This document shows positions 3,610 to 8,271 of a stretch of DNA of 31,409 nt, piece after piece; position 1 is the stretch's first letter, and each line of letters opens with the position of its first letter. A program made the translations under genes and the position numbers. Below the pieces are notes generated by a model. It was not told where the DNA came from and made no database searches. It was given only the letters and a program-made list of their open reading frames with translations. The stretch is from a virus. The DNA lies in IMG/VR virus record IMGVR_UViG_3300032246_000221, positions 1-31,409 of that record, one strand, 5' to 3'.

Positions 3610-3701
3610 TCGGATTGTTTTTAATCCTGTGCTTGGGCGCTGCCATCTCCATTGTGGTGGGTTGGCTATTCGTTCAGATACTGCTCTGGATAAAAGAATA
3701 A
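3606..3701 (+). CDS. Possible 31-aa membrane peptide, GTG start
   Basis: A GTG at 3606 overlaps the previous stop as GTGA and is preceded by GGGGAG (3596-3601). The product is almost entirely one membrane helix (VIGLFLILCLGAAISIVVGW) with the short tail LLWIKE. Its 3' end overlaps the convergent endolysin gene by 28 bp, which is unusual for a spacer and supports a real, tightly packed gene. Such a short, non-ATG ORF is still uncertain. Confidence 0.45.
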   Translation: MIGLFLILCLGAAISIVVGWLFVQILLWIKE

Positions 3702-4114
3702 ACCCGTGTCCCTGCTTTATCAATGATTAAAGCCTGTTTGCGGGGTGCGCCAGCATTGGGAATGGATATGTGTGTCCAGCGGTCAAACTCTCGGATAACT
3801 TGATCGTAGCCAATCCCAGAGGCAATGACGGCCTTGACAACTTCATCAGGGGTTAGCCCTGGCACACGAATATCGGCAGCACAACCAATGCGGTGTTGGC
3901 TTGTGTCTTTAGACCCTACCGCATCGTTAACCGCTTTACTGCGGAACGCAGAGTTAACCATGATCGGCTTGCCGCCAAGTACAGTTTTGACTGTTTCAAG
4001 GAATTCAGCCAATCTTTTAAGGTTTGCAAGTTCAGTTTCATTTGGTATGTTCTCTAGTTCTCGATGATCTGTGATCGTCAGTTCTTCCAAGGTGAAATGG
4101 GTTGACAAGTTCAT
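3674..4114 (-). CDS. Endolysin, M15-family peptidase (146 aa)
   Basis: The sequence matches the zinc peptidase M15 group, which includes phage endolysins that cut peptidoglycan cross-links or stems. The zinc-site motif is present as SQHRIGCAADI (residues 72-82; His74 and Asp81 as ligands), with the third ligand His115 in RWTHISI. The N-terminal FTLEELTITDHRELENIPNE is typical of this family. There is no signal peptide, so release would depend on the upstream holin. It is the last gene of the leftward unit and overlaps the holin gene by ATGA. It converges with the early operon, with no clear terminator between. Confidence 0.93.
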   Translation of the reverse strand: MNLSTHFTLEELTITDHRELENIPNETELANLKRLAEFLETVKTVLGGKPIMVNSAFRSKAVNDAVGSKDTSQHRIGCAADIRVPGLTPDEVVKAVIASGIGYDQVIREFDRWTHISIPNAGAPRKQALIIDKAGTRVYSFIQSSI

Positions 4115-4605
4115 TTCAAACCCTTTACAAGTGCATCGGTTTTATCTTTGCTTCCCTTGGATGAACCAAAAAAGAAGTTAAAGAATCCAGTCAAAACTGT
4201 ACCAATCAGCACCCCAATGATGGTGTCCACAATGCGCGTATTTGCATCTGGTATGGAATAAAACGATGCCATAGCAAAAAACACCATTGCAAAGATTGAC
4301 CAAGTGGCGGTAAACAAATAAAGAAAGTTTTTAGCAAACCAAGATTCTTGCTGAAGTGCCACTTCTTGCATATGACGGGCGCTGGCGCGGTCATCGTTTT
4401 CAAGCTGAAATTGCTTTAAGTCAATCTCTGCCAGCTTTAGCGCCGCCTCTGGGTCAGCTTGCAAGGCTTGTGTTACAGCGGCAACAGTATCAGAAACGCC
4501 CAGCTTGCTGGCTATGGCAGACACCGCCATGCCGCCCAATGGCCCAGCAACAATTGTCGCTAGTCCTGGCGCTGCGTTCTTAAGGAGGTTTAGTAAGGTT
4601 TCCAT
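4111..4605 (-). CDS. Holin-like membrane protein (164 aa)
   Basis: The protein resembles the three-helix holin family seen in gene transfer agents and many phages. The hydrophobic segments are at about residues 12-32 (Gly/Ala-rich), 93-116 (FLYLFTATWSIFAMVFFAMA) and 127-147 (DTIIGVLIGTVLTGFFNFFF), with a charged helical linker between the first two and a Lys-rich C-terminus. The ATG at 4605 has AAAGGA upstream; an in-frame TTG at 4626 would be a weaker choice. It overlaps both neighbours. It would permeabilise the inner membrane so that the endolysin next to it reaches the wall. Confidence 0.82.
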   Translation of the reverse strand: METLLNLLKNAAPGLATIVAGPLGGMAVSAIASKLGVSDTVAAVTQALQADPEAALKLAEIDLKQFQLENDDRASARHMQEVALQQESWFAKNFLYLFTATWSIFAMVFFAMASFYSIPDANTRIVDTIIGVLIGTVLTGFFNFFFGSSKGSKDKTDALVKGLK

Positions 4606-4894
4606 CTTTTTTCCTTTCAGCTTCAATTTGCTTTTGGAGTTTTTCAGTCTTTTCCATTTGGGCCTTGGCCTCTCGCTTGACTACCATTGTGTCAACATAC
4701 ATCATTCCAATCACAGGCATGATCAACGCAAATACAATCACAAACAGTATTAGGACAAAAACATACCCAAGCGGCCCCGATGATGAAGACTTATCATCCA
4801 CATTAGGATAATCAGGTAAGCGGCTACGAAAAGAACCAACACCGTTTCCAGTGCTCTGTCCAATATCTGATTTTTTAACCTTTGTCGCCGCCAT
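4580..4894 (-). CDS. Single-span membrane protein with coiled coil (up to 104 aa)
   Basis: The visible parts are a Ser/Gly-rich N-terminal segment, a membrane helix around residues 43-66 (LGYVFVLILFVIVFALIMPV) and a charged helix (VVKREAKAQMEKTEKLQKQI) ending TKPP. Its 5' end lies inside the 3' end of the upstream 189-aa gene in another frame. The true start may be the ATG at 4894, with only a weak ribosome site, or a GTG at 4801, which would leave 73 aa. One helix plus an outside coiled coil recalls an i-spanin (Rz), but no lipoprotein partner is nested in it. The spanin reading is a guess. Confidence 0.6.
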   Translation of the reverse strand: MAATKVKKSDIGQSTGNGVGSFRSRLPDYPNVDDKSSSSGPLGYVFVLILFVIVFALIMPVIGMMYVDTMVVKREAKAQMEKTEKLQKQIEAERKKDGNLTKPP

Positions 4895-5319
4895 TCTGCC
4901 ACCCGTTTTTTGTGCAGTTCCCTTGCATTGTCCTCTGCCTTTTGATCAAGTAACCGCTGATATTCATCAACGATTTCATGCCATAGGTCAGGTTGCCCCA
5001 TATCCCATCGCACCATTCTCTCAAGATCGGAATAAAACTGTTTGGTTTGCCTGAGAAACATCACATTGTCAATGGCTTGGGTGGCTAGATCGTCCTTGAT
5101 TCCTTTGCGTTTGTTTTCTTCCCGTTGAAACTCTGCTTTTTCATGCCCAGATTCTAATTCGGCTTGGCCCTTAAAGAAGTTTGACAGCGCCCCACCGACC
5201 TCGCTCGTGATCTTGGTTAGGTCGTTACCAGTCTTTTTTAAGTCCTGGTAGACAGCGACACAACCCTTGATTCCCTCATAGGCTGATTTGCATAGGGCGA
5301 ACGCTGTGATGGGGTCAAT
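4750..5319 (-). CDS. Lysis-region membrane protein with ATT start (189 aa)
   Basis: An open frame runs from a stop just upstream of 5319 to 4750 with no ATG, GTG, TTG or CTG before codon 84 of this ORF. The first sense region reads (ATT)DPITAFALCKSAYEGIKGC, matching the MDP(I/V)TA start of a family of phage membrane proteins. The ATT at 5319 sits seven bases after AGGA and overlaps the stop of the upstream gene. A shorter start at 5064 would lose the conserved first half. The body is helical and charged, with one membrane helix at about residues 155-177 (VLVLFVAAYLIILMWMISL). Function is unknown; position implies lysis. Confidence 0.7.
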   Translation of the reverse strand: MDPITAFALCKSAYEGIKGCVAVYQDLKKTGNDLTKITSEVGGALSNFFKGQAELESGHEKAEFQREENKRKGIKDDLATQAIDNVMFLRQTKQFYSDLERMVRWDMGQPDLWHEIVDEYQRLLDQKAEDNARELHKKRVAEWRRQRLKNQILDRALETVLVLFVAAYLIILMWMISLHHRGRLGMFLS

Positions 5320-5545
5320 TTGATTTTCCTAACCAGTGGGACACATAACCCATTGCACTAGATATGGCAGAAACCAGCGCCATGCCAGCCCAGAACCCGC
5401 CTCGACCCTGATTAGCAAGGGCCACCAGTTGTTCTAGCTGACCTTCCATCTTGGTCATCTTCTTGTCCATGTCATCAAATCGGCGCTCGTAGTCCTCGAC
5501 CTTTTGCCAAAGAACGCCATATTTAACTAGGTCAATGTCAGACAT
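5315..5545 (-). CDS. XhlA/holin-like coiled-coil membrane protein (76 aa)
   Basis: The N-terminal part (SDIDLVKYGVLWQKVEDYER, then DDMDKKMTKMEGQLEQLVAL) is a coiled coil. It is followed by a membrane helix (GFWAGMALVSAISSAMGYVS) and the short tail HWLGKSN. This layout, one amphipathic helix then one span, is that of small XhlA-like lysis proteins. The ATG at 5545 overlaps the upstream stop as TGATG, so translation is coupled to the ejection-protein gene. It is the first gene of the lysis cassette. The role in lysis is inferred from layout and neighbours. Confidence 0.75.
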   Translation of the reverse strand: MSDIDLVKYGVLWQKVEDYERRFDDMDKKMTKMEGQLEQLVALANQGRGGFWAGMALVSAISSAMGYVSHWLGKSN

Positions 5546-8271
5546 CACTTGTTCAAATCTTCAAGTTTGTTTTTGCCTGTTTGTTTGCCAAGGGCAGATG
5601 CTTTTTCCATTTCTTTTTCCATCTTTTTTATGGCTTTAGCTTCTGCTCTTGCGCCTAATTTTTGTTCAATTTTTTTGCCTACTTCTCTACCAACAATTGT
5701 CCCTGCGGCTGCTGTGGTTGGATTCATATCACTGAGATATCCTGCAACTGTACCTCCCACAGTACCGCCTACGGCTTGTGCGCCTTTTTCAAGCAAACTT
5801 ATGCGTCTAGCTTGCTGTCCAGCGCCTTCATATTTCAGTCCTGGCGTAAATTGCCCAACCAAATTTAATTTGACATAGTTTTGCACTTCATTTGGTGGGA
5901 ATGTTTCTAAAATCTTTTCACCAACAGTTGAAGTCATCATGTTGTTTACAGAATTGGAATTCCATTCGCCAACTTTGCCAGCGCCAGCTTTGTAAACTTC
6001 ACGGGCTAATGCGCCATCCATTTCAGCTACGGCGGCAGCAGCAGCTTGACGCAACTCAGGTGGAACTGGGGGCAATCCTTCTGGCGCACCTCTTACCCGA
6101 CCATTTGCCAAATCATTAAAAGTATCACGAATGTGTCGCCATTCATCTTTTCGTAAATTGTTTAATGTTGACAGCATTTTTTCGGCTGGTATAGCCGCTT
6201 TAACTATGCCATTTTGATCTACTTCACCAAACAATCGTTTAAATCCATTCGATCCTAAAATGGTTTTTTCAACTTGATGCACTTTATCGCCTAGCTTATA
6301 AAGCGCTGGATCAGCGACCGCGGCAATGTCTTTATCAATAGCTTGATTAATTTTGCGAATTGTATTTGCCCTTTCTGGAGTCCATGTTCCAGGTGCATTA
6401 TTACTTTTGCGTACAGCATCGTATGCAGCTACAGAACCAGGCGGCGCTATTTTTCCGTCTGGAAGTTCAAATCCTACAGTTCTTGCTAATTCAAGTTCTT
6501 TTTTTGCCCCATTTAAAAAACTTAAAGTTCCTTCTTTTTCAGCTGTAGCTAATTGTTGGGCGTTATTAAAAAAGTTATCAGTATGTGAAGTGGCAATTTT
6601 GTTGTTACCCATTCTTTGGAAAGCTGAATCAAAAATTTGTTTTTTGGTTTGATTCAAATATCCAGTAAGGCTTGATGATGCCAAATCGTCCCTTGATGTT
6701 CCATGCGCCACATCATTGACGAAATTGCCACGTTGTTCATCATTTGTAAAAGAACGGCTTGCACCCGTAGCGTTTACACGTTCTTCAGCAAATTTAGAAA
6801 GACCCACTTGCTCATTGGCAATTTGTTCTTTTAACTTTAATCCCAGTGGAGAAGGTTCAGCCATGTTTGCCAAACCATGTTCATTGCGTAGTAGATTGTC
6901 GTTTCCTGTGACAACCCCAGGCCGTGGTTTAAGTCCAGGCAATACATCTTGAAAAAGTTGTGACCTCAATTGTTGTTCTGCAACAGGCACATCTTTGGGA
7001 ATTTTTGTAAGTTTAATTTGTGGAAAGGTTGCACCAACTCCAGCGCCACGGGCGGTTTCCTCGCCTGTAATTTTTCCCAAATATGGGTTGTTTTGTACAG
7101 CCGCAGCGCCAGCACTACCTATTGGGGCTTGCTTGGCTTCAAACTGGGCTTGCGCTTGTTCTTTAGTTAGCTGTCCAGGCTTGACAATTTCCAACTCGGC
7201 AGCGGCTTGGCGCAAAGGTTGTGTTACTTTGCCAACAATAGGCGCAACTTCTTTGATTGCTTGTGGCAATGCAAATGAAGCGGTGACCGCCATGTTTTTA
7301 ATGTCTTGCTCGGGAATGCCTGTTTTTTCAGAAATCTGTTTGGCAGTTAAACCCATTTCTTCTGCCAATTTTTTGACTTGCTCAACAACAGGCTCAGTAA
7401 TACCGCCTAATGGTTTCTGATATGTTTCTTTACCAGTAAGGCCAAAAAATTTGCCCAAAGGCTTGTCAATACTTGCGGCGGCGGCTTGGCCTGTTTGCTC
7501 TGCCCGTTCTGGGCTTTGTGCCGTTCTTGCCAATGCTTGAACTGCCGCGCCATACGTTGCTGGAACAACCCCGTAAAGGGTATCAATTGCGCCAGCCACA
7601 CGCTGGGGAATTTCTTGTTTAGTTTCTAACGCACCTTTTAAGAACTTGCCAACCAATTGGCGAACGCCCCCAGGCTCTTGCGCTTGGTCTATTGCTTGTC
7701 TAACAGCAAAACGTGCGCCACCAGGGGCATGGGGGTTAACGGCATCGTAATAACCTTCTTGCTGGGATACAGGGGCCGCTTGCGGGGCAACAGGGGCGGC
7801 TTTTGCTGCAACGGGTGTAGCAGTAGATTGTCCCAGTATCAAAGACCCTAAATCATCCTCTGGCGCTGCTTGCGGGGCTGCTTGTGAGGTAGGTTGCGTG
7901 GTTTTTGGCGCTGGGCCTTTTAAAACCTTGTTTACATATTCGGTGGGGTCTTTGGTAACAAATCCACCATACGCCGCCAATGCTTTTTCAATGCTACCTT
8001 TATCTTTTACCAATTGCTCAAGGTAAGTTTTTGCCGCTTGGCGTGATTCAGCTTCATTGAATGGATTAAATTCAATGCCTTTTTTGTGCATTGTTTGCAC
8101 TTGTTCTGGCATAAATTGATATGCCCCCATTGCCTTGCTTTCTTTGTTCAAAGCAAATCGATCACCACCGCTTTCAACTTGTCGCAAACGATTAAGCAAA
8201 TCATCAGTAACAATTGATGCGGATTTGGTTTCGGGCGCTTTGCCTAAAATGAGTGAACCAAGATCATCCAT
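5545..8271 (-). CDS. Large ejection protein with transglycosylase domain (908 aa)
   Basis: Residues about 24-105 form a lytic transglycosylase (SLT-type) domain, with catalytic Glu33 in RQVESGGD and the conserved AYQFMP at 50-55. P22 gp16 occupies this slot among the injected proteins; a wall-cutting domain would help DNA cross the cell wall. The rest is an Ala/Pro/Gln-rich linker (about 115-190) and a long, mostly helical body. Gly/Ala-rich hydrophobic patches occur near the end (GGTVGGTVAGYLSDMNPTTA). DDLGSLILG occurs twice, at residues 2-10 and 139-147, on each side of the enzyme domain. The gene overlaps the previous one as TAATG. Confidence 0.85.
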   Translation of the reverse strand: MDDLGSLILGKAPETKSASIVTDDLLNRLRQVESGGDRFALNKESKAMGAYQFMPEQVQTMHKKGIEFNPFNEAESRQAAKTYLEQLVKDKGSIEKALAAYGGFVTKDPTEYVNKVLKGPAPKTTQPTSQAAPQAAPEDDLGSLILGQSTATPVAAKAAPVAPQAAPVSQQEGYYDAVNPHAPGGARFAVRQAIDQAQEPGGVRQLVGKFLKGALETKQEIPQRVAGAIDTLYGVVPATYGAAVQALARTAQSPERAEQTGQAAAASIDKPLGKFFGLTGKETYQKPLGGITEPVVEQVKKLAEEMGLTAKQISEKTGIPEQDIKNMAVTASFALPQAIKEVAPIVGKVTQPLRQAAAELEIVKPGQLTKEQAQAQFEAKQAPIGSAGAAAVQNNPYLGKITGEETARGAGVGATFPQIKLTKIPKDVPVAEQQLRSQLFQDVLPGLKPRPGVVTGNDNLLRNEHGLANMAEPSPLGLKLKEQIANEQVGLSKFAEERVNATGASRSFTNDEQRGNFVNDVAHGTSRDDLASSSLTGYLNQTKKQIFDSAFQRMGNNKIATSHTDNFFNNAQQLATAEKEGTLSFLNGAKKELELARTVGFELPDGKIAPPGSVAAYDAVRKSNNAPGTWTPERANTIRKINQAIDKDIAAVADPALYKLGDKVHQVEKTILGSNGFKRLFGEVDQNGIVKAAIPAEKMLSTLNNLRKDEWRHIRDTFNDLANGRVRGAPEGLPPVPPELRQAAAAAVAEMDGALAREVYKAGAGKVGEWNSNSVNNMMTSTVGEKILETFPPNEVQNYVKLNLVGQFTPGLKYEGAGQQARRISLLEKGAQAVGGTVGGTVAGYLSDMNPTTAAAGTIVGREVGKKIEQKLGARAEAKAIKKMEKEMEKASALGKQTGKNKLEDLNK

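Follow-up and report, generated by a model that had tools for sequence, protein, structure and literature searches.

The gene on the minus strand at positions 4750..5319 of the window (the whole 31,409-nucleotide stretch of viral DNA analysed here) very probably relies on real AUU initiation, which, aided by a good Shine-Dalgarno (SD) sequence and by coupling, would keep a tail-anchored helical protein scarce near the endolysin gene. The ATT start at 5319 is itself strongly supported. As far as sequence can show it, codon 1 provides the only opening of the frame, coding begins there, the start site is conserved, and ATT has been kept against synonymous change. An earlier note on this DNA, made from this one sequence, had proposed that the gene needs an ATT start; the relatives bear this out more widely than one sequence could, with ATT at codon 1 in 85 of 104 distinct sequences, the window counted.

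The start site in the window

The minus-strand frame at 5328-4750 has 192 codons from stop to stop, and 189 codons plus the stop when counted from ATT 5319. It is recognised as a gene by its open frame, by an in-frame bias towards synonymous change and by an AlphaFold2 model. The in-frame stop at 5331-5329 is followed by three codons and then by the ATT (5317..5319, minus strand) and GAC CCC ATC ACA GCG, with no ATG, GTG or TTG between that stop and the ATT. An SD-like AGGA (5327..5330, minus strand) lies seven bases 5' of the ATT, as had been noted earlier, and forms a predicted duplex of -4.2 kcal/mol with a 16S tail that may differ from that of the host. The preceding gene, of 76-77 aa depending on whether it starts at ATG 5545 or GTG 5548, occupies 5315..5545 on the same strand, and its TGA (5317-5315) does share one base with the ATT (5319-5317), in agreement with the overlap described before. 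The first canonical codon in frame is GTG 5064-5062 (codon 86), followed by ATG 5061-5059; the ATG that the earlier note placed at 5064 is therefore this GTG. Its statement that the first 83 codons contain no ATG, GTG, TTG or CTG holds for the first three but not for CTG, which occurs at codon 45 (5187-5185). The window has no tRNA gene, hence none for a phage tRNA that might read AUU.

Conservation of codon 1 among relatives

A first scan found 148 relatives on viral contigs, and the best 80 were analysed; their codon 1 was ATT in 68, ATG in five, GTG in four, and ATC, ATA and GTA in one each. Further scans extended the set to 104 distinct sequences of gene plus upstream region, window included, with ATT in 85, GTG in nine, ATG in five, ATC in two, GTA in two and ATA in one, so that ATG or GTG stands at codon 1 in 14 of the 104. 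These counts are samples, since each scan took its best 80, and one contig is present twice among the relatives (L173, L285). Six short or partial rows, all with ATT, were set aside, leaving 98 rows with ATT in 79. Relatives with ATG at exactly this codon read MDPITAFALCK; the earlier note had likened DPITAF to the MDPITA start of similar phage proteins. A bacterial-genome pattern search for relatives returned 63 matches, none of which was a relative.

A canonical start further upstream in place of ATT was rejected: 88 of the 98 rows lack any ATG, GTG or TTG in the stretch from the upstream in-frame stop to codon 1, and the remaining ten, which were counted against an ATT start, have a TTG, GTG or ATG at no common place. 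In 16 of the 98 rows codon 1 follows the in-frame stop immediately, and in another 16 the stop is one codon further away. The downstream neighbour gene starts with ATG in all 94 matches found on the same contigs, which shows that ATT is not a general habit of these phages. Two members of the nearest outside lineage, about 48% identical to the window protein, also have ATT, each behind an upstream sequence of its own (L252/L330 in one case, L331 in the other).

Other codons at this position form small groups of their own. GTA, which to our knowledge is not a recognised start codon, occurs in two different contigs (L058/L120 and L295), preceded by AGGGG or AGGAG and, at a distance of two codons, by an in-frame TGA. 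ATC is found in L003, L103, L367, L368 and L406, each time behind a 'gggatatgaa' junction, and may be a stable alternative start at such junctions.

Maintenance and origin of the ATT codon

If codon 1 were a plain isoleucine codon it would drift among ATT, ATC and ATA, so the ATT share of isoleucine triplets at codon 1 (79/82, against 110/824 in nine other isoleucine columns) indicates that ATT is kept as a start and not as isoleucine. Because the rows are related, a tree was relied on instead of the tiny Fisher p value. On this tree, built without these isoleucine columns and without L252, synonymous changes number three at codon 1 and 8-16 at the nine other isoleucine codons.

The strongest alternative, which we consider unlikely yet deserving of serious attention, is that ATT is a neutral relic: an ancestral ATG-ATT-GAC (encoding M-I-D-P) would have lost its ATG at the junction and its former second codon would serve adequately as a start, with no selection for a low dose. 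Distant relatives speak for such an origin. Among the 44 matches listed, 35 have ATG followed by an isoleucine codon (25 ATT, six ATC, four ATA) and GAY CCN, and the annotated homologue of Limnohabitans phage DC31 reads ATG ATT GAT. The other distant rows listed have GTG-ATT (one), TTG-ATA (two), ATA-ATA (two) or ATG directly before the aspartate codon (four). The simplest history is probably that ATG was lost and the former second codon ATT turned into the start; as a relic of an ancestral second codon, the odd start would be expected to be an isoleucine codon. However, a strong start could be regained by a single change from ATT to ATG, yet ATT persists in 85 of 104 relatives, synonymous drift at codon 1 is rarer than at the nine other isoleucine codons, and canonical starts come with weaker SDs (see below). 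A relic origin and upkeep by selection are compatible, and both can be true.

The placement of the ATG and GTG rows depends on the tree. In a DNA tree of codons 2-189 all 14 fall outside the 83-row group that contains the ATT rows, beside the very long L252 branch, while in a protein tree rooted on the distant relatives they lie inside ATT at two places, as 12 rows (support 94) and two rows (support 98); both trees come from quick searches, have many weak forks and partly disagree. ATT is likely to be the ancestral state of the clade. In a distant branch, two contigs (L232 at 13783, and L310; also L410 and L411 at 1001) have ATA-ATA-GAT without an in-frame ATG, GTG or TTG upstream, and close kin have TTG-ATA. 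By sequence the protein family would thus contain another near-cognate start, independent of the first.

Upstream junctions and possible translational coupling

The proteins encoded upstream fall into ten groups unlinked by BLAST in 95 of the 98 rows (62 to 476 aa among the examples listed), and the stops of their genes lie at -18 to +10 relative to codon 1 in all three frames. As all ten groups end there, codon 1 marks the left edge of a conserved module. The closeness of these stops suggests coupling or re-initiation. SD duplexes at 56 ATT junctions have a mean of -5.2 kcal/mol (range -8.7 to -2.4) and are stronger than those at canonical junctions (-3.5 kcal/mol for four GTG and -3.0 for one ATG), a contrast drawn from few independent ATG/GTG lineages, with 13 of the 14 canonical rows sharing one upstream gene family. 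The combination of a strong SD with a weak codon, and of a weaker SD with a canonical codon, fits a tuned low yield. A common RNA structure over the start was rejected, seven of eight junctions having z scores of -0.49 to +0.26. The exception is L014 (z -2.73), where a hairpin at 1663-1742 pairs the SD GGGG with a CCCC after the ATT; it was seen in this junction type only. In L252 the counterpart of the window's 77-aa upstream gene (5315-5548) is 85% identical, though identity between the ATT proteins is only 48%, which on sequence grounds looks like mosaic exchange close to the ATT.

Another reading is that ribosomes enter the frame by a programmed +1 frameshift as they finish the upstream gene, which would yield a fusion protein. 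In its favour, the AAT TGA C of the overlap and the AGGA upstream resemble the prfB site. It is nevertheless highly improbable: upstream stops scattered from -18 to +10 over three frames and ten unlinked gene groups exclude a conserved frameshift from a given partner, an in-frame stop lies directly 5' of codon 1 in the 16 rows mentioned above, some relatives have ATG or GTG at codon 1, and no fixed slip site or fixed upstream frame was found among the 98 rows.

Coding signal before the first canonical codon

When the 98 aligned relatives are compared in pairs, synonymous changes make up 77% of the codon differences seen across codons 2-83 in this frame, compared with 7% and 5% in the other two, confirming the earlier impression that the stretch before the first canonical start reads as protein. 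This also bears on whether the product begins inside the frame, at GTG 5064 or ATG 5061, leaving the first 85 codons untranslated. The GTG is the first canonical codon and gives a listed ORF of 104 aa, but such an internal start has very little probability in view of the strong coding signal ahead of it and of an N-terminal helix modelled at pLDDT 80-88. Moreover, the first canonical codon that follows codon 1 in frame shifts among the 98 relatives, being codon 86 (the GTG) in 28, codon 55 in 16, codon 41 in ten and codon 9 in nine, with the rest elsewhere. Finally, a sequencing or assembly error concealing an ATG, which the window alone could not have excluded, is a negligible prospect and is refuted for the family by the first scan (best 80 of 148), whose 68 ATT loci come from 56 metagenome datasets.

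The protein and its gene neighbourhood

The predicted product, fMet-DPITAFALCK..., is helical with a single hydrophobic C-terminal helix. Its AlphaFold2 model (42-row alignment, mean pLDDT 78.7) has helices at residues 3-30, 35-72, 76-106 and 110-180, the last ending in a hydrophobic stretch with many arginines and lysines just before it. These features suggest a cytoplasmic helical bundle anchored by its tail. Searches with the ATT protein gave nothing below 0.09 in Pfam and only a match of unknown function in PHROG (phrog_32327); in the PDB no fold match had an E value below 0.1, helical-bundle matches such as syntaxin lying above it, and in BFVD all four matches with E up to 0.001 were uncharacterized phage proteins. 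As regards a holin, antiholin or spanin, no sequence or fold match to known lysis membrane proteins was found in Pfam, PHROG, BFVD or the PDB.

The window is a fragment of a P22-like phage, in which genes for terminase, a P22-like portal and a P22-like coat protein were found. The ATT gene is followed on the minus strand by a membrane-type gene of 104 aa with an ATG start (4580..4894), then by a 164-aa protein starting at ATG 4605 (4111..4605; PHROG 1544, unknown function, 4.5e-28), which is holin-like by its place and hydrophobic stretches only, and by the endolysin (3674..4114; Pfam Peptidase M15_3, 1.3e-16; phrog_894 endolysin, 3.1e-36). The earlier description of the ATT gene as a lysis-region gene stands by position, but not by function: the M15 peptidase/endolysin gene lies about 640 bases downstream, and in phage DC31 too the gene comes before the endolysin. 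Its place in both suggests that the protein may assist or regulate lysis.

The 3' end of the ATT gene has a long overlap of 145 bases (4894-4750), in another frame, with the 104-aa gene. Synonymous change is unusually low in codons 145-164 of the ATT gene, which lie in this overlap, and is zero at codons 145, 146, 148, 149 and 154, as double coding predicts.

Proposed mechanism and implications

The preferred reading is that of real AUU initiation at a weak start. Ordinary initiator tRNA would read the ATT at 5319-5317, making fMet the first residue. The good SD and the adjacent stop of the preceding gene would bring or keep the ribosome at the ATT, and the weak AUU codon would hold the yield well below the level of an ATG. 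The purpose of this arrangement may be to supply, in a small and constant amount, a tail-anchored helical membrane protein encoded beside the endolysin gene; an excess could be harmful, for example through mistimed lysis, or could interfere with initiation at the overlapping gene downstream. The low dose is expected from precedent, and ATT in most relatives suggests a weak start kept on purpose for a low dose of a membrane protein.

The yield might also drop when initiation factor IF3 is high, a response raised in the earlier note and compatible with the present findings. IF3 discriminates against non-canonical starts, according to PMC5472188 and PMC9410913. In E. coli, as described in PMC2268962, excess IF3 lowers re-initiation, less so with an SD, and blocked growth of M13. 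Since excess IF3 reduces re-initiation in E. coli (PMC2268962), IF3 modulation of the ATT gene is plausible, by analogy with these systems. It is rather doubtful that AUU serves, in a clade of environmental phages, as a brake read by IF3 that would let a lysis-region membrane protein become abundant only when IF3 is short relative to ribosomes. If this were true, lysis control would listen to the initiation machinery of the host, and AUU genes of this kind would make up a class in viruses, passed from junction to junction as a module with AUU as its left edge.

The AUU start is conserved over a large phage group, through protein divergence down to an identity of about 48% and many changes of the upstream gene. 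The relatives offer a natural series at one site (ATT, ATC, ATA, GTA, GTG and ATG, with differing SDs) in which the trade-off between start codon and SD can be tested. Gene callers restricted to ATG, GTG and TTG would cut or lose this conserved phage gene.

Comparison with known systems

A small number of bacterial genes is known to start with AUU, including pcnB, the AUU start of which was reportedly studied by Binns and Masters. A phage gene with an AUU start was not found in the literature by title and abstract opening, a search for which subscription journals were mostly outside scope, so that an older report is possible. In E. coli, infC and pcnB are established cases of AUU initiation (PMC9410913), as is cvfC1 in Staphylococcus aureus (PMC13009471). 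The infC gene, encoding IF3, starts with AUU, AUC or AUA in E. coli and other bacteria and is autoregulated (PMC5472188, PMC9410913, PMC13009471). The phage gene resembles it in its AUU start, in the conservation of a near-cognate start among relatives and in its good SD. However, it is viral, it encodes a protein other than IF3, it gives no ground for claiming a feedback loop, and its start lies at a stop-start junction with many different upstream genes.

In pcnB of E. coli the AUU start limits expression (PMC9410913), and here too AUU would permanently restrain a protein that has no part in initiation, although pcnB is a bacterial gene without a lysis setting. The Staphylococcus aureus genes cvfC1 (AUU) and ccpN (AUA) likewise combine conserved non-canonical starts with a strong SD, giving about 10% of the yield of an AUG reporter (PMC13009471), but the SD is extended in S. 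aureus whereas the phage SDs are of moderate strength and situated at gene junctions. The Streptomyces sigR gene, with a GTC start, is repressed by IF3 (PMC5472188); it is similar in that a rare start codon would set the ratio between neighbouring gene products, and differs in its codon, in encoding a sigma factor and in that the effect of IF3 was measured there. The DC31 protein XLZ15461.1, like phrog_32327, is a member of the same protein family (25.8% identity, E 1e-5) encoded at the same place before the endolysin, but with a canonical ATG ahead of the ATT.
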